DNA of 64,000 bases, taken from Lactobacillus melliventris (lineage in GTDB: Bacteria > Bacillota > Bacilli > Lactobacillales > Lactobacillaceae). The position numbers and the translations under genes are program-made. The notes under the pieces are model-generated. The model ran no database searches and was not told where the DNA came from. It saw only the letters and a list, made by a program, of their open reading frames with translations. Shown here piece after piece: positions 474 to 16,236 of this stretch (the first letter of the stretch is position 1; every line of letters begins with the position of its first letter). Location: positions 1-64,000 of the forward strand of contig NZ_JAAEEB010000003.1 in NCBI RefSeq assembly GCF_013346935.1. Direction: 5' to 3'.

Positions 474-1400
474 CTATTTGATATTAGGTTCAATTTTAAG
501 TTTTTGGAAAGCTGAAATTAAATTCTTTAATCCTGGTTTTAGTTCCTGTCCATGTTTAACTGCAATGAAATATTTAATTTGGATCAAGTTATGATCAACA
601 GGAAGTAGGTTAATAGGTGTCTGTGCCATTCTTTTGATTATGCTGGCTGCAGAAATAGTTAACCCTACACCTTTTATTGCCAAGTTAGTGGCAGTGATAA
701 TACTGCTACTTTCTAAAACAATATTAGGCTTGATATGAAATTTTTGAAACGCACCGTTGACTTGGTGACGTATAGCAGAATTAGTTGAACTGACAACAAA
801 AGGTTCTTGCAAAATATCTTTAATGTCATATTCCTGCGGCTCGAGAATAAACCGTCCTTTTTTAAAATACTTTGATCTTGGTGAAATAATAACAAAATAG
901 TTTTCACCACCATTGACATAGAAGTCTAGTCCTTGATTAAGTGATTCAGGAGTTTGACCGAGATAGCAATCTATTTGTTCATGCAATAGATGTGTTTCAC
1001 TCACCCTGGGAAAGCTTTCCGCTAATTGTATTTTAATATGAGGATTTTCAAACATAAAATTAGGCAGCAGTTCGGGTAATAAAAATGTACCTAGACTTTC
1101 TAAAACACCAATTCTAATTACTTCTCTATTAGGTGACACGTATGGTATTAACTGCTCAGTTAGTTTTTGTTTATTGGAAATTTTAGTTTCTAAATAATTG
1201 TAATAAATTATTCCGGCTTCTGTTAACTTGAATGGAATTGATTCGCGGTCAATTATCTTAGTTCCCAGTTTCCGCTCTATTCTTTTAATTAGTTGCGTTA
1301 AATAAGGCTGTGAAATATATAATTCGCTGGCTGCTCGTGTAAAATTACTTTCTTTTAGTAGGACATCAATAAAATGTAAAACTGTTTCAGGGTCATTCAT
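474..1400 (-). CDS. LysR-family transcriptional regulator
   Basis: A 308-residue protein with the LysR layout. The N-terminal winged helix-turn-helix is at about residues 5-60 (SNFTRAASELYISQPYLTQL), and a substrate-binding domain begins near residue 95. The start ATG is preceded by GGGAGGTAAAAT, a good ribosome binding site. It is divergent from the flavoprotein gene at 1516, the usual arrangement for a LysR protein that controls its neighbour. The 115-bp gap holds a 10-bp inverted repeat (1454-1479) that could be its operator. The ligand is unknown. A fumarate-like or cyclic unsaturated acid is an inference from the target gene. Confidence 0.9.
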   Translation of the reverse strand: MNDPETVLHFIDVLLKESNFTRAASELYISQPYLTQLIKRIERKLGTKIIDRESIPFKLTEAGIIYYNYLETKISNKQKLTEQLIPYVSPNREVIRIGVLESLGTFLLPELLPNFMFENPHIKIQLAESFPRVSETHLLHEQIDCYLGQTPESLNQGLDFYVNGGENYFVIISPRSKYFKKGRFILEPQEYDIKDILQEPFVVSSTNSAIRHQVNGAFQKFHIKPNIVLESSSIITATNLAIKGVGLTISAASIIKRMAQTPINLLPVDHNLIQIKYFIAVKHGQELKPGLKNLISAFQKLKIEPNIK

Positions 1401-1453
1401 ATTTTACCTCCCATAACAATTTTATTATAATCTTTTTACTTTAAAACTATTTC

Positions 1454-1479
1454 ATTTTGCTAAAAAAAGTTAGTAAAAT
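1454..1479. promoter_or_regulatory. Inverted repeat, candidate LysR operator
   Basis: ATTTTGCTAA (1454-1463) and TTAGTAAAAT (1470-1479) are inverted copies with one mismatch, separated by six bases. They sit between the divergent LysR and flavoprotein genes, and the repeat contains several T-N11-A matches typical of LysR sites. Function is inferred from position and symmetry. Confidence 0.5.
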
Positions 1480-1515
1480 TTAACTGATAAGTATTTAAAG
1501 AAAGGAAGTATATTA

Positions 1516-3399
1516 ATGATGAAACCTGGTACTTACAAAGTTAAGGCTAAAGGTCATGGCTCCAGTTTTATGCCTATGGAAGTGACCCTTTCTGAGGATA
1601 AAATCAAAGAAATTGGTATAGATTCAAGTGGTGAAACTGCAGGAGTAGCCGATGAAGTTTTTAAACGTTTGCCAAAGCAAATTATTGCTAGCCAAACTTT
1701 AAATGTTGATGCGGTTAGTGGAGCTACTATTTCCAGCCATGGAGTAGTCGATGGTGTGGCTCAGGCAATTAATGAGGCCGGTGGAGACGCACAAGAATGG
1801 TTAAACAGGCCAAAACCTCAGACCGCTAATAGTTCAGACGCTGAATACCAAACTGATGTTGTGGTGATCGGTGCCGGCGGGGCTGGTCTTGCTGCAGCCG
1901 CCAGAACAATTCAAAACGGTAAAAAAGTAATAGTATTGGAAAAATTCCCTCAAATCGGTGGTAATACTACTAGGGCTGGTGGTCCTTTAAACGCTGCTGA
2001 GCCAGAATGGCAAAATAAATTCCAAGCCTTACCTGGTGAAAAAGAAAGCCTGGAAAAATTAGCCGCTACGCCGATTGCTGAAATTGATCCAGAATACCGT
2101 GATGATTTTAAAGAATTGCAAAAGCAAATTAAGGCTTATGTGGATTCAGGAGAAAATTATCTTTTTGACTCGGTATTATTACATGAGATACAGACTTATT
2201 TAGGTGGCAAAAGAACTGACTTAAATGGTAATGAAATTCACGGTAATTATGCTTTAGTTACTGAACTTGTCAATAACGTACTTGATTCAGTTAAATGGCT
2301 AACTGATTTAGGAGTAAAATTTGACCGCTCTGATGTCACTATGCCGGTTGGAGCTCTATGGCGTCGCGGTCATAAGCCGGTTGAACCTATGGGTTATGCA
2401 TTTATTCATGTTTTAGGTGATTGGATAAAAGATCATGGTGCTACGGTTTTAACTGAAACTAGGGCACAGCATTTAATTATTGAAGACGGTAAAGTTACAG
2501 GTGTTGTATCCCAAGGAAACGATGGCAGTAAGGTTACTATTCATGCCCAAAAAGTAATTTTGACTTCTGGCGGCTTTGGTGCAAATACTAAAATGGTACA
2601 AAAATACAACACTTACTGGAAGCACATTGATGATGACATTGCTACTACCAATTCACCAGCAATTACTGGTGATGGGATAGCTCTAGGCCAAGAAGCAGGT
2701 GCTGATTTAGTAGGTATGGGCTTTATTCAATTAATGCCTGTTTCTGATCCTAAGACCGGTGAATTATTTACCGGTATCCAAACTCCGCCTGAAAACTTTA
2801 TTATGGTTAATCAAAAGGGTGAACGCTTTGTTAACGAATTTGCAGAGCGTGATACTTTAGCTAAGGCGGCAATTGCTAATGGCACTTTGTTCTACTTAAT
2901 AGCAGATAAAAAAATAAAGGCTACTGCCTATAATACAACTGAGGAATCACTTGAGGCTCAGGTAAAAGCCGGTACATTATTAAAGGCTGATACTCTTGAA
3001 GAACTAGCCGAAAAAGCTGGTATGGATCCTGCTACTTTGGTCAATACTATTAAAAAGTATAATTCATACGTTGATGCTGGTAATGATCCGGAATTTGGTA
3101 AAAGTGCATTTAACCTTAAATGTGAAGTTGCCCCATTTTACGCAACGCCTCGTAAGCCAGCTATTCACCATACAATGGGTGGCTTGAAGATTAATCCTAA
3201 AGCGCAAGTATTAAATAAAGAGGGCCAGGTTATTGCAGGTCTATACGCTGCTGGCGAGGTTGCTGGCGGCTTGCATGCTGGTAATCGCCTTGGCGGTAAT
3301 TCATTAGCTGACATCTTTACCTTTGGTAGAATCGCTGCCGATACTGCATGCGGTGAAATTGCACATAATGATGCCGTAACTGGTGCATCTGAAAAATAA
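1516..3399 (+). CDS. FMN/FAD-dependent fumarate-reductase-like flavoprotein
   Basis: A 627-residue soluble flavoprotein with no signal peptide. Residues about 1-90 form an FMN-binding domain with the ApbE flavinylation motif DAVSGAT (65-71). The FAD domain begins with GAGGAG (119-124). Against the Shewanella fumarate reductase fold, the catalytic Arg (R445 in AERD), the HHTMGG histidines (551-552) and the Arg of NRLGG (R591) are kept. The usual substrate His before Pro is Met407, so the substrate may be an enoate other than fumarate. The last nine residues, DAVTGASEK, contain a second flavinylation-type motif. The start has AAAGGAAG seven bases upstream. The likely role is a cytosolic C=C reductase used as an electron sink, controlled by the divergent LysR gene. 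Confidence 0.88.
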
Positions 3400-3412
3400 T
3401 ATTTTGATTCTA

Positions 3413-3445
3413 GTAAAAAGGAAGGCGATTTGCCTTCCTTTTTAT
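3413..3445. terminator. Bidirectional terminator
   Basis: AAAAAGGAAGGC (3415-3426) and GCCTTCCTTTTT (3432-3443) form a perfect 12-bp stem with A/T runs on both sides. It serves the convergent genes ending at 3399 and 3442. Confidence 0.9.
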
Positions 3446-4281
3446 ATATATCCTCTTTCAAAAGCAACAAAAATGGTGACAATTAGTAAATCTGCACAAC
3501 CGCCTAAGCTGTAATTATGTACTAAGCACTCTTTACTTAATTTTTGCAATTGCTTTTTCCCAGCTGCAGCAGCATAGCCACCAAGATCTAAATATTTTGT
3601 TGCTTCTTGGTGGAGCCATTTAACTACATCATAATTTCCGGCCCGTTTAATTAGGTTACTGTCAACCGCTACTGTAGCTATTTTCATTAATGTGTCCAGA
3701 AGCCTGGTTTGAACAGTCCCAGTACTGCTTTTTAAAAAAGGCAGGGCCACTTCTCTGACTATGGGGTAGCCCTGCTCTGCCTGTGCTCTTGCTCCGCCTA
3801 TCTTATATTTAACAAATTCTTGTTCACCAGCTGTTTGTAATTCATTATTTTGAACTAAATCACGCTGTACAAGCCCTTTACACATCTTGGTAATAGTAAG
3901 AAACAGTTCGGTCTTGTTTGTCATACTATAACTTTCGGCACAAACAAAAATTCCTAATGCAAAAATTGCTCCTTTATGGGTATTAGCACCATGGGTAGCA
4001 GTAAACATTTCTTTTTCAGCAGTGATGCCTCTTTGCCTTAATTGCTGAAACATTTGGGTTAAGTCAGTTGAGTGAAAAGTCTGGCCAATTTTAACAGCAG
4101 TGGCAAAATACGATTCTAAACTGATAGAGCTGTCAATAAAAGTATAAATATCCATGTCGGGATGTGGGCCTGGGCTCCCAGGATCTACCAGACCAGGTTT
4201 GGGTTCAGTAACAACTTCATACAAAAGCGAGCGTAAAGCGTTTTGGGTAATTGAATTAGTCATATTATAGGTTTGATTCAT
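3442..4281 (-). CDS. CitG-like triphosphoribosyl-dephospho-CoA synthase
   Basis: A 279-residue protein of the CitG/MdcB family. This family makes the prosthetic-group precursor of citrate lyase or malonate decarboxylase from dephospho-CoA and ATP. Family signatures are EPKPGLVDPGSPGPHPDMD near the N-terminus and THGANTHKGAIFALG in the middle. The family's RGE-A block reads GARAQAEQGYP here, losing the usual Glu. No citrate lyase, malonate decarboxylase or acyl carrier gene is in the window, so it stands alone between two LysR/flavoprotein units. No clear ribosome binding site precedes the first ATG (4281) or the next one at 4263, so the start is uncertain. Family assignment is strong. Activity and partner are unknown. 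Confidence 0.8.
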   Translation of the reverse strand: MNQTYNMTNSITQNALRSLLYEVVTEPKPGLVDPGSPGPHPDMDIYTFIDSSISLESYFATAVKIGQTFHSTDLTQMFQQLRQRGITAEKEMFTATHGANTHKGAIFALGIFVCAESYSMTNKTELFLTITKMCKGLVQRDLVQNNELQTAGEQEFVKYKIGGARAQAEQGYPIVREVALPFLKSSTGTVQTRLLDTLMKIATVAVDSNLIKRAGNYDVVKWLHQEATKYLDLGGYAAAAGKKQLQKLSKECLVHNYSLGGCADLLIVTIFVAFERGYI

Positions 4282-4430: not shown

Positions 4431-5345
4431 TTAGTTGACAGGAATGTTATCAACAATTTTTTGAATATCTGGTTTATGACTTTTAAGAAAGTCAATGAAA
4501 TCAACAGTTCCTGGTGAAAAATTTTGGCTGGAATCATAAACTAAATAAACCTGACGGGTATTTTTAGGTAAATCCAGTTTTATAATGTGAATATCGAAAC
4601 CACTCAGATAAATAGTTTTGGCAACGATGCCGACAATGTCATTGGTCAGTACTTGTCCTGCAATTGCTAATTCATCATGTAGTCTATTTGTGATATTTAG
4701 ATCAGATGCAGTCGCCAATAAAGCATTAGTTATGTCTTTACCAATCTGAATTTTTTTAGAGTAGGTAATAATTGACTCGCCTTGTAATTCTGCAGGCGTA
4801 ATTTCTGTTATTTTAGCCAGGTTGTTTTCTTTTGAAACGATAGCAATAATTTCTTCAGTGTAAAGGGGAATATAAGTAAAATAACTAAATTCAGGTACAA
4901 ATGAGGAAATTCCAATATCATACCAACCATTTTTAATACCTTCGCAAATTTGATATGAAGGATTATCGTGGTAGATGAAGTGAGGGGAAATATTACTTTC
5001 TTGTTGATATTGCTTAGTTAAGTGGGGCAATATAGTTCCAATTGCTGTAGGTATACCGGCAATATGGATATTGCCCTGATCCTGACTGATACGCTGCTCA
5101 ATCTGCTTTTTACCACGATCTAAAGTATTTAAAGATTTGGTTACAGTATCATAAAAAATTCGCCCATATTCAGTTAATTGCACATAACGTCCATTATGGT
5201 TAAACAGTTTGCATTGGAGCTCATTTTCCAGTTGCTTAATCGATATCGAGAGGGTAGGTTGACTGATGAACAAATTGTCTGCTGCTTTTGTGTATTGTTT
5301 TTGGTCTGCCAATTCACGAAAATAATAAAGTTGATTTAGATTCAT
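4431..5345 (-). CDS. LysR-family transcriptional regulator
   Basis: A 304-residue protein with an N-terminal helix-turn-helix (KQYTKAADNLFISQPTLSIS, about residues 16-35) and a LysR ligand-binding domain. It is divergent from the MFS-flavoprotein-dehydrogenase-dehydratase operon that starts at 5778, which makes it the likely regulator of that operon. By context the inducer would be a quinate/shikimate-type acid. It is only distantly similar to the LysR at 474-1400. Its start is preceded by GAGGTGAC, a good ribosome binding site. Confidence 0.9.
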   Translation of the reverse strand: MNLNQLYYFRELADQKQYTKAADNLFISQPTLSISIKQLENELQCKLFNHNGRYVQLTEYGRIFYDTVTKSLNTLDRGKKQIEQRISQDQGNIHIAGIPTAIGTILPHLTKQYQQESNISPHFIYHDNPSYQICEGIKNGWYDIGISSFVPEFSYFTYIPLYTEEIIAIVSKENNLAKITEITPAELQGESIITYSKKIQIGKDITNALLATASDLNITNRLHDELAIAGQVLTNDIVGIVAKTIYLSGFDIHIIKLDLPKNTRQVYLVYDSSQNFSPGTVDFIDFLKSHKPDIQKIVDNIPVN

Positions 5346-5630
5346 GATGTCACCTCAAAATTATTTTTATATTCAATATTAATATTAATAATTACTATAC
5401 TTAGTTTGATAAAGCCTTTACAAAATTTATTTATATTGTTATTGCTGAAATTAATATTCATACGTTATCGTTAATTTTACTATGTTTTGACGCTTTTAAC
5501 TAATGAGTCTTTTTTATTATTGGCAACTATTTACGGCTAAACTTTACATTTTTGTTTCCTTTATCTGACTGCTGCAAAAGAATTAATTGACATAATTCAA
5601 AATGAGCCTAAAAATTAATACTCTGAAATT

Positions 5631-5723
5631 ATGAAAATGAAAAATATTGTTGTAGTAGCGCTTTTAATTATAGTTATTTTTTATAATTTAGTAATCAGAA
5701 ATAATTATTCATATCCGTTTTAA
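5631..5723 (+). CDS. Possible 30-residue membrane peptide
   Basis: ATG-to-stop frame encoding MKMKNIVVVALLIIVIFYNL followed by VIRNNYSYPF: two lysines, then a run of about 16 hydrophobic residues. It lies just upstream of the MFS transporter. No clear ribosome binding site precedes it, and its end overlaps an inverted repeat, so it may be a chance frame in AT-rich DNA. Confidence 0.2.
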   Translation: MKMKNIVVVALLIIVIFYNLVIRNNYSYPF

Positions 5724-5743
5724 TAGGATATATTTATTTCTGA
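5695..5743. promoter_or_regulatory. Long inverted repeat upstream of the transporter operon
   Basis: TCAGAAATAATTATTCATATCC (5695-5716) and GGATATATTTATTTCTGA (5726-5743) are inverted copies apart from a 4-base indel. No T run follows, so it is more likely a regulatory site than a terminator. It lies 34 bp before the transporter start and is a candidate LysR target. Confidence 0.4.
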
Positions 5744-5777
5744 ATTATCAGCAGTCTTAATTTTGAAAGGTAAAGCT

Positions 5778-6977
5778 ATGAAAAAAGGGAAAAGTTATAG
5801 TGGCGTTGCTGCCTCAGTTTATACCCATTTTGCAGTTGTGGGGGCAGCTACCTTATTTATTAGTCAATACAGAGAAATATTGGCCCATTCTTGGAATGCC
5901 AGTGCGACCCAAGTTTCACTTGTAATTGCAATGGTGGGCTTGGGTAGAATTTTTACAATTTTATTTGCTGGTGCTATTTCAGATAAGATTGGTCGTAAAA
6001 GGGCCTTGTTAATTGCATTGCTTAGTGACGCAATTTTTCTTCTTGGTGCTGCTTTTGCAAACAATATTTGGATAGCGGGGTTAGCAGCAATGTTTTTCGG
6101 TGCAACCAATTCATTTGGCGATACAGCCGGTTATCCTGCACTTGCAGATGCTTTTCCAGATAAAACAGCCACAATGAACTCGTTTGTTAAAGCCGCAATG
6201 CAAGTCATGCAAATGTTATTTCCATTTTGCGTAAAAATAATTAAAAACCCTAAGATTACAGCGTTAATATTAGTCATTATTATTTTACTGGATGTTGTAT
6301 TTACAATGAAAACAGCTTTTGCCCCACAAGCTGAGGCAAAAGAGGCTCCTGCAGAAGAAAAAAGCCAAGAAACTGGTATTAGTGAGCAGAATCAGCCTAA
6401 GTTGGCTGTTGATGGCTTAATGATCATTGGTTTAGGTTTTACAATTTGTTTTACATTCTATATTTTTTCTCTTTATGCTCCCTACTATGGGCAGTATGTG
6501 TTAAATGAGTCCGCTGCTAACGCCAATCAGCTTGTATCATGGTATTCGATTGCTTCCTTAATATCTGTGTTTGTGACCTCAGCTTTAGTAACTAGGGTAA
6601 AAAGATTGAATTTAATTATGGTATATTCAGCTATTACTGCCCTTGGCCTGCTGTTTATGGTCTTAAAACCGTCCCTGCTAGCTGGTGAAATAGGTTCTTT
6701 AGCTGTCGGTTTCTTTACTGCAGGGGGAGTCTGGCAAGTTGCACTTTCCGTTTTGACTTCTTATTTTCCCCAAAGTCACGGAAAAATTACTTCATACTAC
6801 AGTTTTGCGCCAGCCGTGGTTTATTTTGTAGCACCACTTATAGCTGCGTTTGTATTAAAGGCCAATGCTGCAAGTACATTGATGGTATTTTGGATAACTA
6901 CAGTGATAACGATCATTTCGGTGGTTCTATGTGTTGTCTTGATTAGTCGTAGTAAAAACTTCAATATCAAAAATTAA
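5778..6977 (+). CDS. MFS transporter, likely for an organic acid
   Basis: A 399-residue major facilitator protein with about 12 hydrophobic segments. The conserved loop after helix 2 reads GAISDKIGRKRAL, the MFS signature. The middle loop (around residues 180-210) is charged and Gln/Glu-rich. I place the start at the ATG at 5778, with GAAAGG seven bases upstream, rather than the in-frame TTG at 5763. It heads an operon with a flavoprotein, a quinate/shikimate dehydrogenase and a dehydroquinate dehydratase, with gaps of about 15-40 bp. It is therefore inferred to import quinate, shikimate or a related acid, or to exchange it with the reduced product. Substrate not shown by the sequence. Confidence 0.85.
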   Translation: MKKGKSYSGVAASVYTHFAVVGAATLFISQYREILAHSWNASATQVSLVIAMVGLGRIFTILFAGAISDKIGRKRALLIALLSDAIFLLGAAFANNIWIAGLAAMFFGATNSFGDTAGYPALADAFPDKTATMNSFVKAAMQVMQMLFPFCVKIIKNPKITALILVIIILLDVVFTMKTAFAPQAEAKEAPAEEKSQETGISEQNQPKLAVDGLMIIGLGFTICFTFYIFSLYAPYYGQYVLNESAANANQLVSWYSIASLISVFVTSALVTRVKRLNLIMVYSAITALGLLFMVLKPSLLAGEIGSLAVGFFTAGGVWQVALSVLTSYFPQSHGKITSYYSFAPAVVYFVAPLIAAFVLKANAASTLMVFWITTVITIISVVLCVVLISRSKNFNIKN

Positions 6978-6998
6978 TATAAAGTAGAAGGTGAATTT

Positions 6999-8768
6999 AT
7001 GTCAGAAAAAACAATTAAAGCAACAGCAGAAGGCAGAAATGGTCAAATCGACTTTGATATTAAAGTTGAAGATAATCAAATTACAGATATCAATGTGACT
7101 AAAACTGCCGAAACCCCGGGTATCTTCAACCAGGTTGTGGGTAAATTAAAAGAGAATATTATTAATAATCAAAGTTTCGCTGTTGACGCTATTTCCGGTG
7201 CTTCGATTATGACACAAGCTATGCTTGACTCTGGTAAAAAGGCCTTAAAAGCAAATGGTGTAAATATTGCTTCTCAGCCTAGCAATCAGTCACATCAAGA
7301 TGTAACCTATGATGTGGATGTAGCCGTAATTGGTTCGGGGATGGCAGGCTTAATGGCTGCCTCTCGGGCATTATCAATGGGTAAAAATGTTCTTTTACTT
7401 GAAAAAAATGGCTATCTCGGTGGAGCTACAATTTTAAATGGTTCAAACGTAGTTGGCACTGGTTCAAAATTAGCAGCTACTTTATTTGGTGAGCAAGCAA
7501 AAAAAGATTCTCCGCAGTTCTTGGTTCAAGATATTGCCCGAGAATGCCGGGGGACAAACTATCCATTACTTTCAGATTTACTAGCGCAAAATATTGGTAA
7601 AGCAGTTGATTTTATTACTGAATTTGCAGATCTAACCTATCAGAAAGCTGAAACACAAACTATTGAACATTCTGTTAACCGCCAAATTGAAATGCCAACG
7701 GAAAGTTCTTATGAATTAATAGCTAAAGTGGCAAGTGCTTTTACCAAAAAGGGTGGCAAAATTTTACTGGAAACTCGGGTGGAACACCTGAATAAAAATG
7801 AACAGGACCAGCTCGTCTCATTAGTTGCTGAGGGTAAGCACGAAACAGTTACCGTAAACTTTAAGTCCTTAATTATGGCAGCTGGAGGCTGGGGCGCGCG
7901 TGATTACCGGCAGCACAAGACCAACATCCCTTATTATGGTCCAATGACTTCAACTGGTGATTATTTTGATTTTGCTAAAAATATGAATTTAGCTTCCCGC
8001 AATCTTGACTGGTATAAAGTTTACCCCCATGGTTTAGAAGTTGAGCCTGGTATTGCCAAATTAACCACCTATTCAACTAAAGAAGCGACGGACATGGGTG
8101 CTATTTTTGTTAATACTAGTGGTAAGCGAATTGTAAATGAATCTGCCCCATACACTCACTTTAGGAATGCCATTGCTGAACAAAAGGATAAAATTGCTTT
8201 TGTAGTGATGGATGAAAGAACATGGAACAGATTTTATGAACTGTTACTTAAATATGGTTTTAGCAAAGATGAAGTTCAAGGCTTCTTTGATCTTGACGGC
8301 AAAAAGAGTCCGATTTTAGTTAGCGGAGACCTGCAGACTGTAGCTCAAAAAGCTGGCATTAATTATGACAACCTAAAGAAGACTTTAACTGACTATGAAA
8401 AATATGTAACTTCAGGTAATGATCCTGAGTTTGGTCGTCCTTCCCAGTTTATGCATAAATATGAAGGCGATACCTACTTTGTGATTGAGCAGAAATTACG
8501 TTTTTGTACTACCCTTGGTGGTTATGAAACTAATCAGCGTATGCAACTTTTAGACCAAGATTTAAAAGCGTTAGACAATTTCTATGCCGCCGGAGAGATT
8601 GTTGGCGGTGCTAACGGTCATGATTCAATGCCAAGTATGATGAATTCTTGGTCTTATGCTTCAGGTTTTGTGGCCGGAACAGAGGCTGCTGATAATGCCA
8701 ATTATCAAAAATTTGAAAAGACTGCACCTGATCCAACTGATGCAGTGTCTGGTGCTTCTAAAAATTAG
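6999..8768 (+). CDS. Divergent FMN/FAD flavoprotein, candidate shikimate-type enoate reductase
   Basis: A 589-residue protein with the same layout as the flavoprotein at 1516. It has an FMN-binding domain with motif DAISGAS (63-69) and a FAD domain starting with GSGMAG (about 111-116). The extreme C-terminus again ends in a flavinylation-type motif, DAVSGAS plus two residues (581-589). Unlike true fumarate reductases it lacks the catalytic Arg (NESAPYTHF replaces NExxxRD). It also lacks the HHTMGG block (FCTTLGG instead) and the NRLGG arginine (GHDSMPSMMNSW instead). The substrate must therefore differ from fumarate. It sits between the transporter and the dehydrogenase/dehydratase pair in one operon. 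Shikimate is a cyclic alpha,beta-unsaturated acid, so reduction of its ring double bond is a reasonable but unproven role. The ribosome binding site is GAAGGTG. Confidence 0.8.
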   Translation: MSEKTIKATAEGRNGQIDFDIKVEDNQITDINVTKTAETPGIFNQVVGKLKENIINNQSFAVDAISGASIMTQAMLDSGKKALKANGVNIASQPSNQSHQDVTYDVDVAVIGSGMAGLMAASRALSMGKNVLLLEKNGYLGGATILNGSNVVGTGSKLAATLFGEQAKKDSPQFLVQDIARECRGTNYPLLSDLLAQNIGKAVDFITEFADLTYQKAETQTIEHSVNRQIEMPTESSYELIAKVASAFTKKGGKILLETRVEHLNKNEQDQLVSLVAEGKHETVTVNFKSLIMAAGGWGARDYRQHKTNIPYYGPMTSTGDYFDFAKNMNLASRNLDWYKVYPHGLEVEPGIAKLTTYSTKEATDMGAIFVNTSGKRIVNESAPYTHFRNAIAEQKDKIAFVVMDERTWNRFYELLLKYGFSKDEVQGFFDLDGKKSPILVSGDLQTVAQKAGINYDNLKKTLTDYEKYVTSGNDPEFGRPSQFMHKYEGDTYFVIEQKLRFCTTLGGYETNQRMQLLDQDLKALDNFYAAGEIVGGANGHDSMPSMMNSWSYASGFVAGTEAADNANYQKFEKTAPDPTDAVSGASKN

Positions 8769-8805
8769 TATAGAATAATTATTTTAAATTTAATAAAGGA
8801 GAAAA

Positions 8806-9723
8806 ATGATGACTAATAAAATTACTGGTGTTAATGGTCCTATTACTGGCTGGCTTGATGGTCATACCTACTTAATTGGGTTGATGGCTTATCCTATTCG
8901 GCATTCAATGTCACCAACAATGCACAATAATGCGTTTGCTAAGCTGGGCTTGAATTACACCTATCTTTGTTTTGAAGTTGGCAACGATAAATTAAAAGGC
9001 GCAGTTGACGCTATTCGCACGTTAGATATGCGTGGTTCCAACGTTTCGATGCCTAATAAAAAAGAGGTCATTCAATACCTCGATAAATTATCACCTGCTG
9101 CTAAAATGTGCGATGCTGTTAATACTATTGTGAACGATCATGGCGTTTTGACAGGCTACACCACTGATGGTATCGGTTTTGTGCAATCACTTAAAGATGA
9201 AGGCTTTGATATTAAAGGTAAGATTATGACCTTAACTGGTGCAGGTGGTGCTGCAACACCGATAGCGGTTCAGTCAGCTTTAGATGGTGCTAAGGAAATT
9301 AGAATGTTTAACATTAGAGATAAAAATTGGCCTCAAGCTGAAAAGACTGTTAAAACTATTCGTGAAAACACTGACTGCAAGGTTTCTCTGACTGAATTAT
9401 CTGATCAGGAAGCATTCAAACAATCAATTGCAGAAAGTGATATTTACTGCGATGCAACTAGCATCGGAATGAAGCCGTTTGAAGATAAGACATTAGTTTC
9501 AGATCCATCATGGTTCCATCAGGATATGGTAGTATTTGACACGGTTTATTCTCCAAGAACTACTAAGTTAATGAGAGTGGCACAAGAGGCCGGAGTTAAG
9601 CATGTCTATGATGGTATCGGCATGATGATTGATCAAGGTGCAGCATCATTTAAGCTATGGACAGGTAAAGAGATGCCAACCGATTATATCCGTGAGATTA
9701 TATTTTCAGACGACAACGATTAG
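8806..9723 (+). CDS. Quinate/shikimate dehydrogenase, YdiB type
   Basis: A 305-residue protein of the shikimate dehydrogenase family. The substrate domain has PIRHSMSPTMHN (30-41), catalytic Lys85 in VSMPNK and Asp121 in GYTTDGIGF. The nucleotide-binding loop is GAGGAA (145-150). The SMPNK motif and the C-terminal GIGMMIDQGAASFKLWTGK match E. coli YdiB more closely than biosynthetic AroE. YdiB uses either quinate or shikimate. The adjacent dehydroquinate dehydratase mirrors the ydiB-aroD pair of E. coli. It would interconvert quinate/dehydroquinate and shikimate/dehydroshikimate. The ribosome binding site AAAGGAG precedes two adjacent ATGs (8806 and 8809), and either could start. Confidence 0.9.
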   Translation: MMTNKITGVNGPITGWLDGHTYLIGLMAYPIRHSMSPTMHNNAFAKLGLNYTYLCFEVGNDKLKGAVDAIRTLDMRGSNVSMPNKKEVIQYLDKLSPAAKMCDAVNTIVNDHGVLTGYTTDGIGFVQSLKDEGFDIKGKIMTLTGAGGAATPIAVQSALDGAKEIRMFNIRDKNWPQAEKTVKTIRENTDCKVSLTELSDQEAFKQSIAESDIYCDATSIGMKPFEDKTLVSDPSWFHQDMVVFDTVYSPRTTKLMRVAQEAGVKHVYDGIGMMIDQGAASFKLWTGKEMPTDYIREIIFSDDND

Positions 9724-9738
9724 TTGAGGGATTAACTA

Positions 9739-10497
9739 ATGGCTACTGTAAGGATTAGAAATACTGTTTTAGGTGCAGGGCTGCCCAAAATTGCCGTCCC
9801 TAATGTCGGAACAAGCACAGAAGAAATTTTGACTGCAGCTGAAAAGATTAAGTCTGCCAAACCTGATTTAATGGAATGGCGGATTGATTATTATGCTGCA
9901 GGAGTTAATGACTTTGCCAAGCTAAATACTACTGCCAAGAAATTGCGGCAGGAAGTGGGTGAGCTGCCTATTTTGGTTACCTTTCGCACTAAAAATGAAG
10001 GTGGGGTCTGCAGTCTGGCTGAAGACGAATATTTAAATTTAATAGAATATGTCGTTACTAATAGGCTGGGTGATGCAGTTGATATAGAACTTTTTCATGA
10101 TGAAAAAAGAGTAAAGTCTTTAGTAAACTTAGCTCATGACTACAATGTCGTAGTAATTATGAGTAACCATGACTTTGAAAAGGTGCCAGCTAAAGATGTT
10201 ATTGAATTTCGTTTACGAAAAATGGCTCAACTTGGTGCAGACGTCCCTAAATTAGCCTGCATGCCTCATAGTGCCTCTGACGTTTTAACTCTTTTAGCAG
10301 CAACGACAGAAATGAATGCAGAAATTTCTAACCCCTTGATTACTATGGCTATGGGCGATATTGGTAAAGTTACCAGAGTAGCCGGTCAAGTTTTCGGTTC
10401 TAGTTTATCCTTTGGTGCAGTTGGCCAAACTTCGGCACCCGGTCAATTGTCAATTGCAGATTTGCGGAATGCGGAAAAGTATTTGGCAGTGGATTAA
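9739..10497 (+). CDS. aroD: 3-dehydroquinate dehydratase, type I
   Basis: A 252-residue type I enzyme that interconverts 3-dehydroquinate and 3-dehydroshikimate. The family's active residues are all present: EWR (46-48), His144 in SNHDF, Schiff-base Lys171 in DVPKLACMP, Arg213 in GKVTRV, and the closing loop QTSAPGQL (230-237). It follows the YdiB-type dehydrogenase by 15 bp with its own GAGGG site and is the last gene of the operon. No other aromatic biosynthesis gene is nearby, so a catabolic or reductive role on quinate is more likely than chorismate synthesis. Confidence 0.95.
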   Translation: MATVRIRNTVLGAGLPKIAVPNVGTSTEEILTAAEKIKSAKPDLMEWRIDYYAAGVNDFAKLNTTAKKLRQEVGELPILVTFRTKNEGGVCSLAEDEYLNLIEYVVTNRLGDAVDIELFHDEKRVKSLVNLAHDYNVVVIMSNHDFEKVPAKDVIEFRLRKMAQLGADVPKLACMPHSASDVLTLLAATTEMNAEISNPLITMAMGDIGKVTRVAGQVFGSSLSFGAVGQTSAPGQLSIADLRNAEKYLAVD

Positions 10498-10518
10498 AAT
10501 TAATATAATAATAGTATT

Positions 10519-10556
10519 AAAAAGCTAACTTTATATACTGATAAAGTTAGCTTTTT
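10519..10556 (+). terminator. Intrinsic terminator after the quinate/shikimate operon
   Basis: AAAAAGCTAACTTTA (10519-10533) pairs perfectly with TAAAGTTAGCTTTTT (10542-10556) around an 8-nt loop, ending in a T run. Confidence 0.92.
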
Positions 10557-10815
10557 GTGTACAAATTTTATTTTGAATAGTAAAAATTGAAATAACTAAG
10601 ACGGTTTATATAATAAGATTTTTTATTTTATTTTATATGTAACTAGGTAATATTATAATGTCTATTTTTTGTGAGACAGTACAAGAGTACAATTATCAAG
10701 AGAAGTAATTTGAAAGCATATTCAAACTTTAAATGATAAAATGTTTAGAGCAAAAGAATACTATTTTATTGTAAATCATTAAACTTTTAAAATAAATGTA
10801 AGGAGAGATCATCAG

Positions 10816-11817
10816 TTGGCTACAATTCGTGATGTTGCGAAAGAAGCAGGTGTGTCTTTAGGTACTGTTTCGCGCTATTTGAATGGATATACTCTAAAAA
10901 AAACAAATATGGATAAAATTGCTGCAGCTATTAAGAAACTTGGTTTCAAGCAAAATTATTTAGCAAAGGGCTTAAAAACAAAGAAAAGTCATGCAATAGG
11001 TGTTGTGGTAAATGCTTTAACAGATATTTTTGCTGCATCCATAGTCACTTCTTTAGAGGACTTTTTGGAAAAGAATAACTATGAGTTAATAATTGCTGAT
11101 TATAAAAACAATATAAAATTGCTAAACGAAAAGCTTAAATTTCTGTACTCAAGAAATGTAGATGGCATCGTTCTTTTTCATGTTGAACAAGCAGTGCCCA
11201 TATTAAAAGAATTCCGGAAGAAAAAAATCCCAGTAGTAGCTGTTGATACTCCCATATCTGGGTTTGAGTGCGATACGGTACTGCTGGATAATTATCATGC
11301 TTCAGTTGAAGCTGTCAAATCCCTCTATGAAATAGGTCACAGACAAATTGGCATTATTTCGGGTGGCCAACAAGGGTATGTTGGCTCTGAAAGATTGCGC
11401 GGTTATGTTGCTGCAATGAAAAAATACGGTATTTTTGATCGCGAGTTAATAGTAGGTGGAAGTTCATTTAAAGATTCAAGCTATGATGCTACTTTAGATT
11501 TACTTAAAAATAATCACCAAATAACCGCACTATATTCTACAAATTATTATATGACAATAGGAGCTATTCAAGCAATAAATGAGTTGAATCTCAGAATTCC
11601 TGTGGATATTTCATTTATTGGCTTTGATGACTATGATATTTCTACAGTAATAAAACCCCAGTTAACCGTTGTAGCACAGCCAGTCGCAAAAATCGGCCGA
11701 GAAATCGGGAAAATAATTATACAAAAAATTACTAATCCGGCTGACTTAAACTACCAAACCAAGTTTTTTAAAGCCAAAATTGTTTGGCGAGATTCTGTCA
11801 TAAATAAAAACTTTTAA
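10816..11817 (+). CDS. LacI-family repressor of the fucoside locus
   Basis: A 333-residue LacI/GalR protein. The helix-turn-helix is at the extreme N-terminus (ATIRDVAKEAGVSLGTVSRY) and a periplasmic-binding-like sugar domain follows. It starts at TTG (10816) with AGGAGAG eight bases upstream. An in-frame ATG start giving the complete DNA-binding domain is absent, so TTG is preferred. Downstream lie two AACCGGTT-centred palindromes before the transporter-fucosidase genes, the expected target. The 258 bp upstream of it holds no gene that I can see. Confidence 0.9.
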   Translation: MATIRDVAKEAGVSLGTVSRYLNGYTLKKTNMDKIAAAIKKLGFKQNYLAKGLKTKKSHAIGVVVNALTDIFAASIVTSLEDFLEKNNYELIIADYKNNIKLLNEKLKFLYSRNVDGIVLFHVEQAVPILKEFRKKKIPVVAVDTPISGFECDTVLLDNYHASVEAVKSLYEIGHRQIGIISGGQQGYVGSERLRGYVAAMKKYGIFDRELIVGGSSFKDSSYDATLDLLKNNHQITALYSTNYYMTIGAIQAINELNLRIPVDISFIGFDDYDISTVIKPQLTVVAQPVAKIGREIGKIIIQKITNPADLNYQTKFFKAKIVWRDSVINKNF

Positions 11818-11830
11818 GAAAGCGATTGCA
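11817..11830 (+). promoter_or_regulatory. Candidate cre (CcpA) site
   Basis: AGAAAGCGATTGCA matches the catabolite-response consensus TGWAANCGNTNWCA at all but two positions. It lies just upstream of the fucoside operon promoter region. This suggests, but does not prove, glucose repression. Confidence 0.4.
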
Positions 11831-11861
11831 ATTAATTTCTAAAAGTAATATTATTATTGTG

Positions 11862-11881
11862 TAATTGAACCGGTTCAATTA
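11862..11881. promoter_or_regulatory. LacI-family operator 1 of the fucoside operon
   Basis: TAATTGAACCGGTTCAATTA is a perfect 20-bp palindrome centred on a CG step, the shape of LacI/GalR operators. It lies between the repressor gene and the MFS-fucosidase genes. It is not followed by a T run, so a terminator is unlikely. Confidence 0.75.
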
Positions 11882-11973
11882 TTAAAAGCTTTTTATTGTT
11901 TAGATACATTTAGGGTTCATTTTCGTAATATATATTATTCTGCTTTAGTGAACATTATATTTTATTATAAAAA

Positions 11974-11985
11974 TGAACCGGTTTA
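11974..11985. promoter_or_regulatory. LacI-family operator 2 of the fucoside operon
   Basis: TGAACCGGTTTA repeats the AACCGGTT core of operator 1 about 109 bp downstream, 36 bp before the transporter start. Two spaced sites would permit repressor looping. Confidence 0.65.
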
Positions 11986-12020
11986 AAAAAGTTTTGTTTA
12001 TTTAAGTAAGGAGAAATTTT

Positions 12021-13232
12021 ATGGATGACAAAAGTGTTATTCAGCAGAGTAAAAAACTAATGATAGCGATCATGGGTATTTCTCTGGTTTTATCTACTTC
12101 AGGAGCTATTAGTGGTACTATTCCTTTAATGGAAAAGCATTTTGCTAACATGCCAACTTCTACTGTAGAATTGATTGTCACTATTCCGAGCTTCTCTGGA
12201 ATTTTTATTCCGTTGCTTGCTGGGTTTATTGAAAAGGTTACTGGTAAAAAACTGTTGGCATTGCTGGGATTAGGTATCACTGCAATTTGTGGTGTTATTC
12301 CAGTATTTACCGGTAATTATTGGTTAATTTTATTTTCCAGAATAATGGTAGGAGTAGGGATCTCTCTTCTTACTCCATTAAGTGTTTCATATATCACTGA
12401 TATTTATGAAGAGAAAAGAGCTAATGAGCTTTTAGGCTACAGAAACTCTTTTATTAATATTGGTAGTACCGTTTTACTCTTTTTAGCTGGTTATTTAATA
12501 AAAATTGGTTGGCATTCTGCTTACTGGGTATTTGCTCTAGCTGTTATTCCGTTCATAATGACGCTGGTTTGGATACCTAAGCGTTTTGATAACTATAGTG
12601 TTACTGTGGGCGAAGATGTCGATCAGCAAAAGATTAAACAGACTACTAACTGGCAAATAATTGGCTATGCGATTTTGTTTGGCATTATGCAAATTAGTTA
12701 TATGGGAATTAGTCTTAAAATTCCAAGCTACATTGTTAATAATCATATTGGTGATAGTAGTACAGGAAGCTTTATCTTAAGCTTATTACCAATTGCAGCT
12801 ATTGTTTCAGGGCTTCTTTATAAATACATTTATCATGTCTGGCAGAAAAATACCACTGCGTTTAGTGCTACCATTGCTGGTCTTGCATTAGGAGTTACAC
12901 TATTTTTACGCAATTCCTACTTAATTGGTGCTTGCATTATGATTTCCGGCTTTTTCTGGGGCATCATGAATCCTCATATGACTGAACTGTTTGCCCTTAG
13001 TTCGCCAAAAGGTTCAATGACGTTGAGCACTTCCATAGTTATCTTTGGAATTAATATCGGTGGAACGTTTGCTCCATTTATCTTCCAATTTTTAGGAGCT
13101 TTATTCCATAATTATAGCCCTGAAATGGGTCTGATCATTTCAGCACTTATTTGGATTATTTTTGGTGTGGTATTTTTGATTGTAAATTTGATGTTAGCTA
13201 ATAAAGCTAAAGGAGACAATAAAGATGCGTAA
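12021..13232 (+). CDS. MFS sugar transporter, likely for fucosides
   Basis: A 403-residue membrane protein with about 12 hydrophobic segments and an MFS layout. The first half has SRIMVGVGISLLTPLSVSYITDIY, typical of helices 4-5. It is preceded by AAGGAG and by the two LacI-type operators, and its end overlaps the next gene by 8 bp, so translation is probably coupled. With two fucosidase-family genes downstream it is inferred to import a fucosyl-saccharide that is then cleaved inside the cell. Substrate not visible in sequence. Confidence 0.85.
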   Translation: MDDKSVIQQSKKLMIAIMGISLVLSTSGAISGTIPLMEKHFANMPTSTVELIVTIPSFSGIFIPLLAGFIEKVTGKKLLALLGLGITAICGVIPVFTGNYWLILFSRIMVGVGISLLTPLSVSYITDIYEEKRANELLGYRNSFINIGSTVLLFLAGYLIKIGWHSAYWVFALAVIPFIMTLVWIPKRFDNYSVTVGEDVDQQKIKQTTNWQIIGYAILFGIMQISYMGISLKIPSYIVNNHIGDSSTGSFILSLLPIAAIVSGLLYKYIYHVWQKNTTAFSATIAGLALGVTLFLRNSYLIGACIMISGFFWGIMNPHMTELFALSSPKGSMTLSTSIVIFGINIGGTFAPFIFQFLGALFHNYSPEMGLIISALIWIIFGVVFLIVNLMLANKAKGDNKDA

Positions 13233-15201
13233 AAGAACTGTTCACTTGGATTTTCACACTAGTCCATATGTTAAAGTTGGTGAAAAATTTGACAGTCATG
13301 AGTTTGCTCAAACCTTAAAAAAAGCTCATGTCAACTCTATTACCTGTTTTGCTCGGGATCATCATGGGTATCTCTGGTATAATTCTAAAAATCATCCTGA
13401 AATGATTCATCCAGGATTAGTCAATCATAACTTGCTTGCAGAACAAATTAAAGCTTGTCATGAGGTAGGAATAAAAGTTCCTATTTATTCTACCTGTCAA
13501 TGGGATGAATATTGCATGTTAAATCACCCAGAATGGCTCTGCCGAGATCCTGAAGGCAATAGAATTAATATGGGTGATGAAAAGCCTAATTTTAATGATG
13601 TTTTATGTTTAAATAGTGATTATCGTCATTATTTGTTCGACCATGTTAACGATGTGATAGACAGTATTGGAGCAGAGAACATTGATGGTTTCTTCTTTGA
13701 TATTTTTTTCCTAGTGCCATGCGATTGCAAACATTGCAGAAAAGAAATGGCTCGCCTAGGTATCGACCACACAATTGAAAGTGAACGTGTACGGTATTGT
13801 CATTTAATGCTAAAAGAGTTTAAACGTGAAATGACCAGTCTAATTCATAAACGAGTTAAGAATGCTACTATTTTTTATAATGGTTCTCATGTTGGACCTT
13901 ATATTAAAACTTCACTGCGTTACTACTCACATCTTGAAATAGAGAGTCTCCCTGGTGGAAACTGGGGCTACGATAATTTCCCTCTAGTAGACAGATATGC
14001 TAGAACACTGGGTAAAGATATTATCGGTATGACTGGAAAGTTTCATACATCATGGGGTGATTTTCAATCCTTTAAAAATAAAGAAGCTTTGGAATATGAA
14101 GTTTTCCAAATGTTATCTTTTGGTGCAGGGTGTTCAATTGGTGACCAATTACATCCTAGTGGACAATTATCTCCTGCTACCTATGAATTAATTGGCCATG
14201 TGTATAAGACTGTAGAACAACTAGAACCAGAACTTGAAAATACGAAGCCTTTAGCAGAAATTGCTGTAGTTACTCCGGAAAGCATATGGGACAACGGTAT
14301 GACTTTAGACGAATCCCTTATCGGAGCCAACCGAGTCCTCGACGAACTGGGATATCAATTTAATATCATAGACTTAGAAGCAGATTTTTCTCAATATAAA
14401 TTGCTGATTCTGCCAGACAAAATTAAAGCTACACCAGAAAGTTTTGCCAAACTGCAAAATTATGTCAAAAACGGTGGCAAGGTGTTGTTGTCATACCAGT
14501 CAATGGATCAAGGAGTTTACAATGAAAACCCTCTGACTGGTAATTTAATGGAAGGATACTCTTTCTGGGATCGCGATTATATTTATCCTAATTCACAAAT
14601 AGGACATAATTTACCTCAAGAAGAACATGTTATGTATGAGCAGGGAATGGCTGTTGAACCAATTAGCTCAAAAGTTATTTTGGAAACACGTGAACCCTAC
14701 TTTAACCGTGAAGGTAAATATTATTACGGCCATAAACATGCTCCTTCCACAGGCAAAAAAGGTGTACCAGCAGCTACTCTGAAAGGAAACTGCATTTACT
14801 TTTCACATCCTGTTTTCAAGATTTATCGTGACTATGCTCCTCGGTGGGTAAAAGAAATCATCTCTGATGCTTTGAACATATTACTTCCAGATCGGTATGT
14901 TGTTAAGCCAGAAGATAAACCAAGCCTGTCAGCACAGTTACATTACTCATCAAATAAAAATAAGTTTTTGTTACACCTATTAGATTATCCTCTAAAGAAA
15001 AATGCGGTTAATTTATATACTATTGATGAACGGTCACAGTTGATAAATCAAAACTTTACAGTTTTAGTAGGAAACAGAAAAGTTAAAAAGGTCGAACTTA
15101 TAAGGCAAAATCAAGAAATTGCTTTTCACCAAGATGATACCAAAATTAGCTTTACTGTTCCCAAAATTGACGGCTATGAAATTGTAAAAATACAATGTTA
15201 G
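13225..15201 (+). CDS. GH151-like putative alpha-L-fucosidase
   Basis: A 658-residue protein without a signal peptide. The N-terminal half resembles the hypothetical glycosyl hydrolase 6 barrel (HLDFHTSPYV at the start, then DGFFFDIFFL around residue 155). The middle matches a beta-galactosidase trimerisation-like domain (YVKNGGKVLLSYQS, around residue 420). That domain pair characterises family GH151, whose known members are alpha-L-fucosidases. A GH29 fucosidase gene follows after 9 bp, which supports the same substrate class. A Cys/His cluster (CDCKHC) lies in the barrel. Family recall is moderately sure. Specificity is inferred. Confidence 0.75.
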   Translation: MRKRTVHLDFHTSPYVKVGEKFDSHEFAQTLKKAHVNSITCFARDHHGYLWYNSKNHPEMIHPGLVNHNLLAEQIKACHEVGIKVPIYSTCQWDEYCMLNHPEWLCRDPEGNRINMGDEKPNFNDVLCLNSDYRHYLFDHVNDVIDSIGAENIDGFFFDIFFLVPCDCKHCRKEMARLGIDHTIESERVRYCHLMLKEFKREMTSLIHKRVKNATIFYNGSHVGPYIKTSLRYYSHLEIESLPGGNWGYDNFPLVDRYARTLGKDIIGMTGKFHTSWGDFQSFKNKEALEYEVFQMLSFGAGCSIGDQLHPSGQLSPATYELIGHVYKTVEQLEPELENTKPLAEIAVVTPESIWDNGMTLDESLIGANRVLDELGYQFNIIDLEADFSQYKLLILPDKIKATPESFAKLQNYVKNGGKVLLSYQSMDQGVYNENPLTGNLMEGYSFWDRDYIYPNSQIGHNLPQEEHVMYEQGMAVEPISSKVILETREPYFNREGKYYYGHKHAPSTGKKGVPAATLKGNCIYFSHPVFKIYRDYAPRWVKEIISDALNILLPDRYVVKPEDKPSLSAQLHYSSNKNKFLLHLLDYPLKKNAVNLYTIDERSQLINQNFTVLVGNRKVKKVELIRQNQEIAFHQDDTKISFTVPKIDGYEIVKIQC

Positions 15202-15210
15202 GAGAAGTAT

Positions 15211-16236
15211 ATGAATAAAAATAATAATATTGAATGGTTCAAAAATGCTAAATATGGCATGATGATTCATTGGGGATTATATTCTCTTCTTGCTGGTGAA
15301 TATGAAGGAAAATCTTCAAGTTATTATGCCGAATGGATTCAATCTAAATTGCAAATACCTATTGTTAAGTACCGCCAACTTGCAACAGCTTTTAATCCAA
15401 TTTATTTTGACGCTGATAAGATTGTCGCATTTGCTAAAAATTGTGGTATGAAGTACCTGGTAGTTACTACTAAACATCATGATGGTTTTGCAATGTATCA
15501 TTCACAAGTTGACCCATACAATGTTTATGACGCGACACCTTTTCACAGGGATGTAATCGGAGAATTGGCAGAAGCTTGCCAAAAGGCAGGTTTGAAATTT
15601 GGTCTTTATTATTCACAAGACTTAGACTGGCATGAACCTAACGGTGGCGGCTACCTTTCAAATGATATCGAATCAGCTGGTACTACTTGGGATAACAGCT
15701 GGGATTTTCCACAGAAAAACAAGAACTTTGCTCAGTGTTTTAATGACAAAATCATACCTCAGATTAAGGAAATAATGAGTAATTACGGTGAGATAGCTAC
15801 AGCTTGGTTTGATGTACCAATGACTTTGACTGAGGCTCAGAGTCAGGAAGTTTACGACACGGTGAAAAAACTGCAGCCAAACTGTTTAATCAATTCCCGT
15901 CTTGGTAATGGTAAATATGATTATGTTTCACTTGGTGACAATGAAATTCCAAGTGACAAAGAAGAAAATCAACAAAATGTTGATTATAATTCAATTGAAG
16001 GATTTAAACCGTCTCCTTATGGCTTATATGAAACGGCTGGTACAATTAACGATTCTTGGGGCTTTTCGTACCGCGATCAAAATTGGAAATCTCCCGCAAC
16101 AATTTACCAATACCGCAAACATTTAAATAGTTTAGGAATCAATTATCTTTTAAATGTTGGACTTGATGGCTTAGGCAGAATTCCTTTACCAGCCCAAGAA
16201 AATATTGCTGCTGCAGCAAAATTGGTTGAAAATTAA
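15211..16236 (+). CDS. GH29 alpha-L-fucosidase, compact form
   Basis: A 341-residue GH29 enzyme. Signatures are KYGMMIHWGLYS (14-25), TTKHHDGFAMYHS (87-98) and the predicted nucleophile Asp201 in TAWFD. GH29 proteins are usually 430-600 residues, and this one stops soon after the barrel, so the C-terminal beta-sandwich appears absent. There is no signal peptide, so it acts in the cytosol on imported fucosides. It is the last gene of the LacI-controlled operon and is preceded by AGGAG. Confidence 0.92.
   Translation: MNKNNNIEWFKNAKYGMMIHWGLYSLLAGEYEGKSSSYYAEWIQSKLQIPIVKYRQLATAFNPIYFDADKIVAFAKNCGMKYLVVTTKHHDGFAMYHSQVDPYNVYDATPFHRDVIGELAEACQKAGLKFGLYYSQDLDWHEPNGGGYLSNDIESAGTTWDNSWDFPQKNKNFAQCFNDKIIPQIKEIMSNYGEIATAWFDVPMTLTEAQSQEVYDTVKKLQPNCLINSRLGNGKYDYVSLGDNEIPSDKEENQQNVDYNSIEGFKPSPYGLYETAGTINDSWGFSYRDQNWKSPATIYQYRKHLNSLGINYLLNVGLDGLGRIPLPAQENIAAAAKLVEN

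Follow-up and report, generated by a model that had tools for sequence, protein, structure and literature searches.

Locus and gene annotation

The window analyzed here comprises the first 64 kb of contig C3 (NZ_JAAEEB010000003.1) of Lactobacillus melliventris, whose genome (label G000, 2.0 Mb) is 99.9% complete. It contains an operon of four genes in one direction, encoding an MFS transporter, a flavoprotein designated FlvB, AroE and AroD, opposite a LysR-type regulator gene. The gaps between the four genes are 21, 37 and 15 nucleotides, and a sequence of the ribosome-binding type was read ahead of each gene. An earlier note on this DNA had described the same arrangement, and every gene was found in its place by open reading frame (ORF) listing and Pfam. 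The operon probably serves a dissimilatory, reductive pathway for hydroaromatic acids, in which FlvB would reduce the ring double bond. The features are as follows:

4431..5345, minus strand: LysR-type regulator (ORF list; Pfam LysR_substrate and HTH_1)
5667..5688, strand unassigned: candidate operator for LysR between the divergent genes, with the dyad ATTATA-N10-TATAAT (weak evidence)
5778..6977, plus strand: MFS transporter, presumed quinate/shikimate importer (ORF, opening at TTG 5763; Pfam MFS_1)
6999..8768, plus strand: FlvB, FMN_bind and FAD_binding_2 flavoprotein of 589 amino acids (AA), candidate ring C=C reductase (ORF, Pfam)
7185..7205, plus strand: FlvB residues 63-69, DAISGAS, putative ApbE flavinylation site (alignment of 50 sequences)
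8151..8153, plus strand: FlvB Tyr385, aligned with the Arg that donates the proton in fumarate/urocanate reductases (alignments, 50/50)
8806..9723, plus strand: AroE, YdiB-like quinate/shikimate dehydrogenase (ORF, Pfam Shikimate_dh_N and SDH_C, NCBIfam, structure matches, residues)
9739..10497, plus strand: AroD, type I 3-dehydroquinate dehydratase (ORF, Pfam DHquinase_I, NCBIfam, residues)
10514..10562, plus strand: terminator hairpin of the rho-independent type, 3' of aroD (folding)

Putative flavin attachment and active site of FlvB

FlvB is 94%, 93% and 92% identical to its counterparts in the bee-gut species Lactobacillus helsingborgensis, L. kimbladii and L. kullabergensis, respectively, and the host is accordingly regarded as a Lactobacillus of the bee-gut type. 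Conservation was determined in 50 aligned FlvB sequences, some of which stem from identical or almost identical genomes. The window's own entry (L001) was excluded, as were copies that were partial, cut or broken (L033, L044, L046, L064-L068). The flavinylation motif of ApbE is of the type DxxSGA[S/T]. In the alignment, D63, G67 and A68 occur in all 50 sequences and S66 in 48, while position 69 is S in 26 and T in 24. The FMN_bind domain, a site of this type and an ApbE in the genome, which together characterize ApbE-flavinylated FMN_bind proteins, were all found. FlvB is taken to carry a putative covalent flavin mononucleotide (FMN) at DAISGAS and, with no signal peptide apparent on reading the sequence, to be cytoplasmic.

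From family membership, the earlier note had expected C=C reduction next to a carboxylate. In fumarate and urocanate reductases, one Arg is the proton donor, and Arg and His hold the substrate carboxylate (Arg402/411, His504/520, Arg544/560; roles from PMC7921117). The alignments place Tyr385 at Arg402/411, Thr504 at His504/520 and Ser543 at Arg544/560, where UrdA and FccA have Arg, His and Arg, so that this expectation fails: all three responsible residues are replaced in FlvB. The residue numbers 504 and 544 are those of Fcc3. Tyr385 and Thr504 are found in 50/50 sequences and Ser543 in 48/50, and the active-site residues are invariant among FlvB sequences down to about 53% identity. With 189.2 bits FlvB also lies below the cut-off of 285.45 for the flavocytochrome c subfamily TIGR01813, which a second flavoprotein of the window (1516-3399) passes with 360.1 bits. 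Naming FlvB a fumarate, urocanate or tricarballylate reductase after its family was ruled out by cut-offs and residues. The residue test likewise speaks against the UniRef name 'Urocanate reductase' of an 81% identical homologue (P0089); the protein search covered the best 120 of 755 matches, all at least 79% identical, and is silent on distant members.

The fold matches of FlvB include enzymes of ring ketones, namely cyclohexanone dehydrogenase (8am3, 8am8) and 3-ketosteroid dehydrogenases (4c3x, 7p18, 4at0), at 19-22% identity. These enzymes work as dehydrogenases, and their matches start near FlvB residue 100, leaving the FMN_bind domain unmatched. The solved fragment of an L. plantarum protein (2lfc) has the motif that surrounds Tyr385 in FlvB. 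At position 385, the more remote relatives L069-L071 (26-28% identity) carry Asn or Arg instead of Tyr; the four neighbour genes checked in L069 are unrelated. In G000, 18 matches to FlvB were obtained at E ≤ 0.001, counting FlvB itself and split matches, which corresponds to about a dozen paralogous flavoproteins. Among the aligned paralogues, a Tyr stands at the 543 position in several and at the 385 position in two.

Linkage and co-occurrence of FlvB, AroE and AroD

From named genomes, 39 loci were collected, and 38 were usable after a remnant (L049) had been dropped. AroE and AroD lie within 7 kb of FlvB in 28 of the 38. Among the 26 loci flanked by at least 5 kb on each side, both accompany FlvB in 22; the remaining four are L041 (AroE only, 6.7 kb away), L047 (AroD only, truncated) and L044 and L046 (broken FlvB). 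The link cannot be just recent descent of one block, because the gene order varies. In the family sample, 18 of 151 genomes contain FlvB (E ≤ 1e-40), and 15 of these 18 hold AroE and AroD within 10 kb, two of the 15 with a broken FlvB. The conservation of the cluster, which the earlier note had proposed to check, holds across Lactobacillaceae for FlvB, AroE and AroD in most loci and genomes, with three of the 18 genomes departing from it (see below).

In 61 Lactobacillus genomes, AroD was found in 23 (E ≤ 1e-80, a line drawn after the results had been seen), always together with FlvB; three genomes have FlvB without AroD and 35 neither. Fisher's exact test gives p = 7e-14 for this co-occurrence, kinship being ignored. 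The association of FlvB, AroE and AroD exceeds chance. Broken or partial FlvB copies were noted in L044, L046, L049, G078, G118 and G019, and FlvB function seems to have been lost repeatedly among the relatives. In the order sample, 9 of 246 genomes match FlvB at 1e-100, two of them in another family; beyond the order, in the phylum sample with the top three candidates per genome scored, two of 398 genomes besides G000 match at E ≤ 1e-45 (28-30% identity).

AroE, AroD and aromatic biosynthesis

AroD reaches 230 bits against TIGR01093 (cut-off 139.3), identifying it as a type I 3-dehydroquinate dehydratase. Glu46, Glu117, His144, Lys171, Arg213 and Gln236 are present; Lys171 is the Schiff-base Lys, His144 the catalytic His and Glu117 the catalytic Glu. 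The earlier assignment of a type I enzyme with its catalytic residues is borne out.

The description of AroE as YdiB-type held only in part. The protein aligns with the YdiB structure 1npd over residues 22-299 of 305 (2.1e-96) and contains Lys85 and Asp121. Against the YdiB family NF009390 it scores 343.2 bits, narrowly under the cut-off of 349, and it passes the cut-off of 431 for shikimate dehydrogenase NF001313 with 478.8 bits. The best solved match is 3tnl (2.8e-104) from Listeria, named shikimate dehydrogenase. It is plausible that AroE acts on quinate. The AroE type was rejected as proof of quinate use, because AroE proteins from chorismate-synthase clusters are nested among the FlvB-linked ones.

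No chorismate synthase match was obtained in G000, with 14 of 14 controls positive, nor in the five other Lactobacillus genomes of the family sample; the enzyme is present in 83 of the 151 family genomes. AroD and AroE have one match each in G000. Since chorismate synthase is missing from this genome, the two enzymes cannot serve full aromatic biosynthesis here and must have a purpose other than chorismate supply.

Probable electron supply and companion genes

G000 holds two ApbE and three stand-alone FMN reductases. Two of the reductases and one ApbE lie together on C3, about 166 kb from the operon (L094, G000:C3:172000-184000), in a row of two FMN_red genes, a phosphatase-like gene (by reading) and ApbE, which is likely a donor and flavinylation cluster. 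Of these two reductases, one shares 40% identity with the domain fused to FlvB in L039 (E 8e-45). In relatives, ApbE homologues of more than 45% identity occur in ten FlvB loci, of which two belong to a single genome. Eight of the 50 aligned FlvB proteins are extended C-terminally to 763-769 AA, and all three tails tested are FMN_red domains. Since FMN_red is fused to FlvB in relatives, NAD(P)H is, by analogy, the likely electron donor of FlvB.

HcrB of L. plantarum is a hydroxycinnamate reductase with an FMN-reductase-type domain (COG0431) and needs NADH and FMN (PMC10295242). Like FlvB, it is a lactobacillus flavoprotein under LysR control, and the long FlvB relatives share its FMN_red-type domain. 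By Pfam, the window FlvB lacks FMN_red and thus the fused domain of HcrB. As described, HcrB acts on hydroxycinnamates and belongs to the hcr cluster, whereas FlvB sits with aroE-aroD. A gene resembling cinnamoyl/chlorogenate esterases lies near FlvB in L025, L026 and L037/L039, the L025 copy having been compared with solved structures.

Seven aroE-aroD loci were fetched from genomes without FlvB. In two of them (L077, L078), an Old Yellow Enzyme (OYE)/BaiCD-like enzyme adjoins aroD, and these genomes carry a second, more distant AroE and AroD. The OYE/BaiCD-like flavin reductase has about 675 AA (L077:6848-8884, L078:6020-8056), and close relatives of its gene adjoin FlvB in L041 and L042/L082. 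Upstream of FlvB in L015, L017, L021, L028, L032, L038 and L043 lies a cluster of CoA-transferase III, acyl-CoA dehydrogenase, electron transfer flavoprotein (ETF) and CoA ligase, typed in L015; there it also contains a 149-AA protein without NCBIfam match. Relatives of its acyl-CoA dehydrogenase are also found in L077 and L078. The cluster might reduce rings or cinnamates by way of CoA esters. As the real reductase it may be considered in its seven loci and was excluded here, the acyl-CoA dehydrogenase having no match in G000 at E ≤ 1e-60 and occurring in 7 of the 61 Lactobacillus genomes.

Near FlvB or AroE (L031, L036, L048, L084-L087 and others), an SDR protein was found in 12 loci and a TIM-barrel protein homologous to Lmo2234 in 10 (L031 copy 5e-88). 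Listeria has quinate/shikimate (qsu) operons. The window operon resembles them in its AroE of the 3tnl family, and relatives' loci do so in the Lmo2234 homologue; the window operon differs from qsu in having no Lmo2234-type gene. L084 has two divergent AroE proteins (47-48%), and L085 has two (45-48%) beside a 69% copy.

Proposed pathway and alternative explanations

Lactobacilli use quinate and shikimate as hydrogen acceptors and form saturated cyclohexane carboxylates, as reportedly described by Whiting and Coggins in 1971. The activity is old; what is new here is a candidate gene and operon for it. A gene for the ring C=C reduction step was not found in a literature search that left most subscription journals outside its scope; PMC8456714, PMC9600256, PMC5953540, PMC9324987, PMC4600210 and PMC8004764 did not decide the question. 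If the pathway proposed here is true, it would supply the gene for an activity described some fifty years ago. Within a large superfamily whose members often go by the name of fumarate or urocanate reductase, it would define an active-site class of a new kind. It would also explain one fate of plant quinate in plant fermentations and in the bee gut. Gut bacteria of bees deplete quinate more strongly than most compounds, several members of the community taking part (PMC5726620, where the passages on quinate do not name the member considered here).

We consider it probable, and well supported by context, that the operon encodes a dissimilatory, reductive hydroaromatic pathway. The evidence is the operon anatomy, the absence of chorismate synthase, linkage and co-occurrence, the flavinylation motif, the ApbE and FMN reductase genes, the fusion of FMN reductase in relatives and the loss of the fumarate-reductase residues; most of it also upholds the claim of the earlier note that a dissimilatory quinate/shikimate route is tied to a flavin reductase. 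Transport and the direction and order of the steps would be as follows. The MFS protein would import quinate and/or shikimate, AroE would oxidize quinate (or shikimate) with NAD(P)+, and AroD would dehydrate 3-dehydroquinate to 3-dehydroshikimate. FlvB, with covalent FMN and bound FAD, would then transfer two NAD(P)H-derived electrons to the C1=C2 double bond in the ring of a C7 hydroaromatic acid; in this genome they would arrive via a separate FMN reductase. The invariant Tyr385 would replace the usual Arg as proton donor. The product, a saturated polyhydroxy-cyclohexane carboxylate, would not feed into aromatics, and the ring acid, whichever it is, would serve as an electron sink re-oxidizing NADH.

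As substrate of FlvB, 3-dehydroshikimate is the favoured candidate, and shikimate is the second choice. On chemical grounds, by our own reasoning, 3-dehydroshikimate should be the better electron acceptor: its double bond is flanked by the carboxylate on one side and a ring ketone on the other, the two standing trans to each other as in fumarate. This choice is consistent with the lost carboxylate residues, with the fold matches to ring-ketone enzymes and with the two loci that carry an OYE-type enzyme; none of these proves it.

Several observations weigh against the pathway or parts of it. In three FlvB genomes of the family sample (G019, G099, G122), AroD is not near FlvB, and three of the 26 FlvB-bearing Lactobacillus genomes, one of them 57% complete, lack a strong AroD. 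With the retrospective AroD line relaxed to E ≤ 1e-10, AroD matches 34 of the 61 genomes; the 11 extra matches span about 50-140 residues, several contain stops, all lie in genomes without FlvB, and they look like remnants. The 18 FlvB genomes of the family sample divide evenly into nine with and nine without chorismate synthase, so the argument for a role outside biosynthesis is limited to this genome and genus and does not extend to all FlvB hosts. All seven genomes from which FlvB-less loci were fetched have chorismate synthase, in L076 and L080 within the locus itself, and the AroE of these two loci is 65-67% identical and nested among the FlvB-linked AroE in the tree. An OYE relative was not found in five of the seven (L075, L076, L079, L080, L081), with some neighbours typed in L075, L079 and L081. 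The window operon contains no FMN reductase. Finally, the predicted local distance difference test score of the FlvB model is below 50 at residues 297-319, 343-355 and 503-507, which are active-site loops; because the model is poor there, the placement of Tyr385 rests on sequence alignment.

A wider reading is held tentatively, at low odds that were reduced further because the OYE exchange rests on two of seven loci. FlvB might be the first described member of a Lactobacillales-centred group of cyclohexenone-carboxylate (3-dehydroshikimate) reductases with Tyr in place of the Arg acid. It might also be one of three exchangeable ene-reduction modules (FlvB, the OYE/BaiCD-like enzyme and the acyl-CoA dehydrogenase/ETF cluster) attached to aroE-aroD for using plant hydroaromatic acids as electron acceptors.

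The alternative that survives best, although rather improbable, is the one in the earlier note, that AroE acts twice, oxidizing quinate and reducing dehydroshikimate, and that FlvB reduces shikimate to dihydroshikimate. The same linkage evidence applies to it, and the HcrB precedent (PMC10295242) concerns a C=C next to a carboxylate in hydroxycinnamates. However, FlvB is without the three carboxylate and proton residues of fumarate/urocanate reductases, and in shikimate the carboxylate alone would activate the double bond (again our own reasoning). Moreover, L077 and L078 carry an OYE-type enzyme, of a class that prefers enones.

It is unlikely that FlvB is a hydroxycinnamate (caffeate) reductase in an operon that handles both halves of chlorogenate, AroE and AroD taking the quinate half elsewhere. 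The long FlvB forms do share the domain types of HcrB, and a chlorogenate-type esterase gene lies near FlvB in a few loci. That is three or four loci, compared with 22 of 26 well-flanked ones for AroE and AroD; the window operon has no esterase, and it would stay unexplained why a strong AroD never lacks FlvB in the 61 Lactobacillus genomes.

Still less probable is an oxidative direction, in which FlvB, like the ketosteroid and cyclohexanone dehydrogenases, would help to aromatize dehydroshikimate to protocatechuate or catechol. No 3-dehydroshikimate dehydratase is among the Pfam matches of the window operon, the rest of the genome not having been searched for one; the host is a fermenting organism with no evident electron acceptor, and the FMN_red fusion points to electron input. 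The broken or partial FlvB copies (L044, L046, G078, G118, G019), the truncated AroD of L047 and the AroD fragments of 11 FlvB-less Lactobacillus genomes would suit a system for salvage or detoxification, or what is left of a decaying aromatic biosynthesis, with the flavoprotein as a passenger, but this is the least probable explanation given that the genome lacks chorismate synthase, the linkage is kept in different gene orders and the active-site residues are invariant down to about 53% identity.

Candidate regulatory signals and neighbouring genes

For the MFS gene, ATG 5778 is the more likely start than TTG 5763, judged from the sequence. The dyad at 5667-5688 may, weakly, be a LysR site: among seven aligned sequences it is kept in the window, L011, L012 and L033 and partly in L016 and L030. 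The hairpin at 10514-10562 folds with a free energy of -19.6 kcal/mol (z -6.7), and none of 200 shuffles was equally stable. A promoter and terminator pattern scan gave no excess over shuffles, and this hairpin is not among its sites.

Upstream, at 474-4281, the second FMN_bind/FAD_binding_2 flavoprotein (1516-3399) is accompanied by a LysR gene of its own and by a gene of the CitG type (3442-4281). This flavoprotein keeps the Arg/His/Arg residues and has Met in place of a His of FccA. Downstream, at 10816-16236, genes for a LacI regulator, an MFS transporter, a GHL6-type glycosyl hydrolase and an alpha-L-fucosidase probably form a sugar-use operon.

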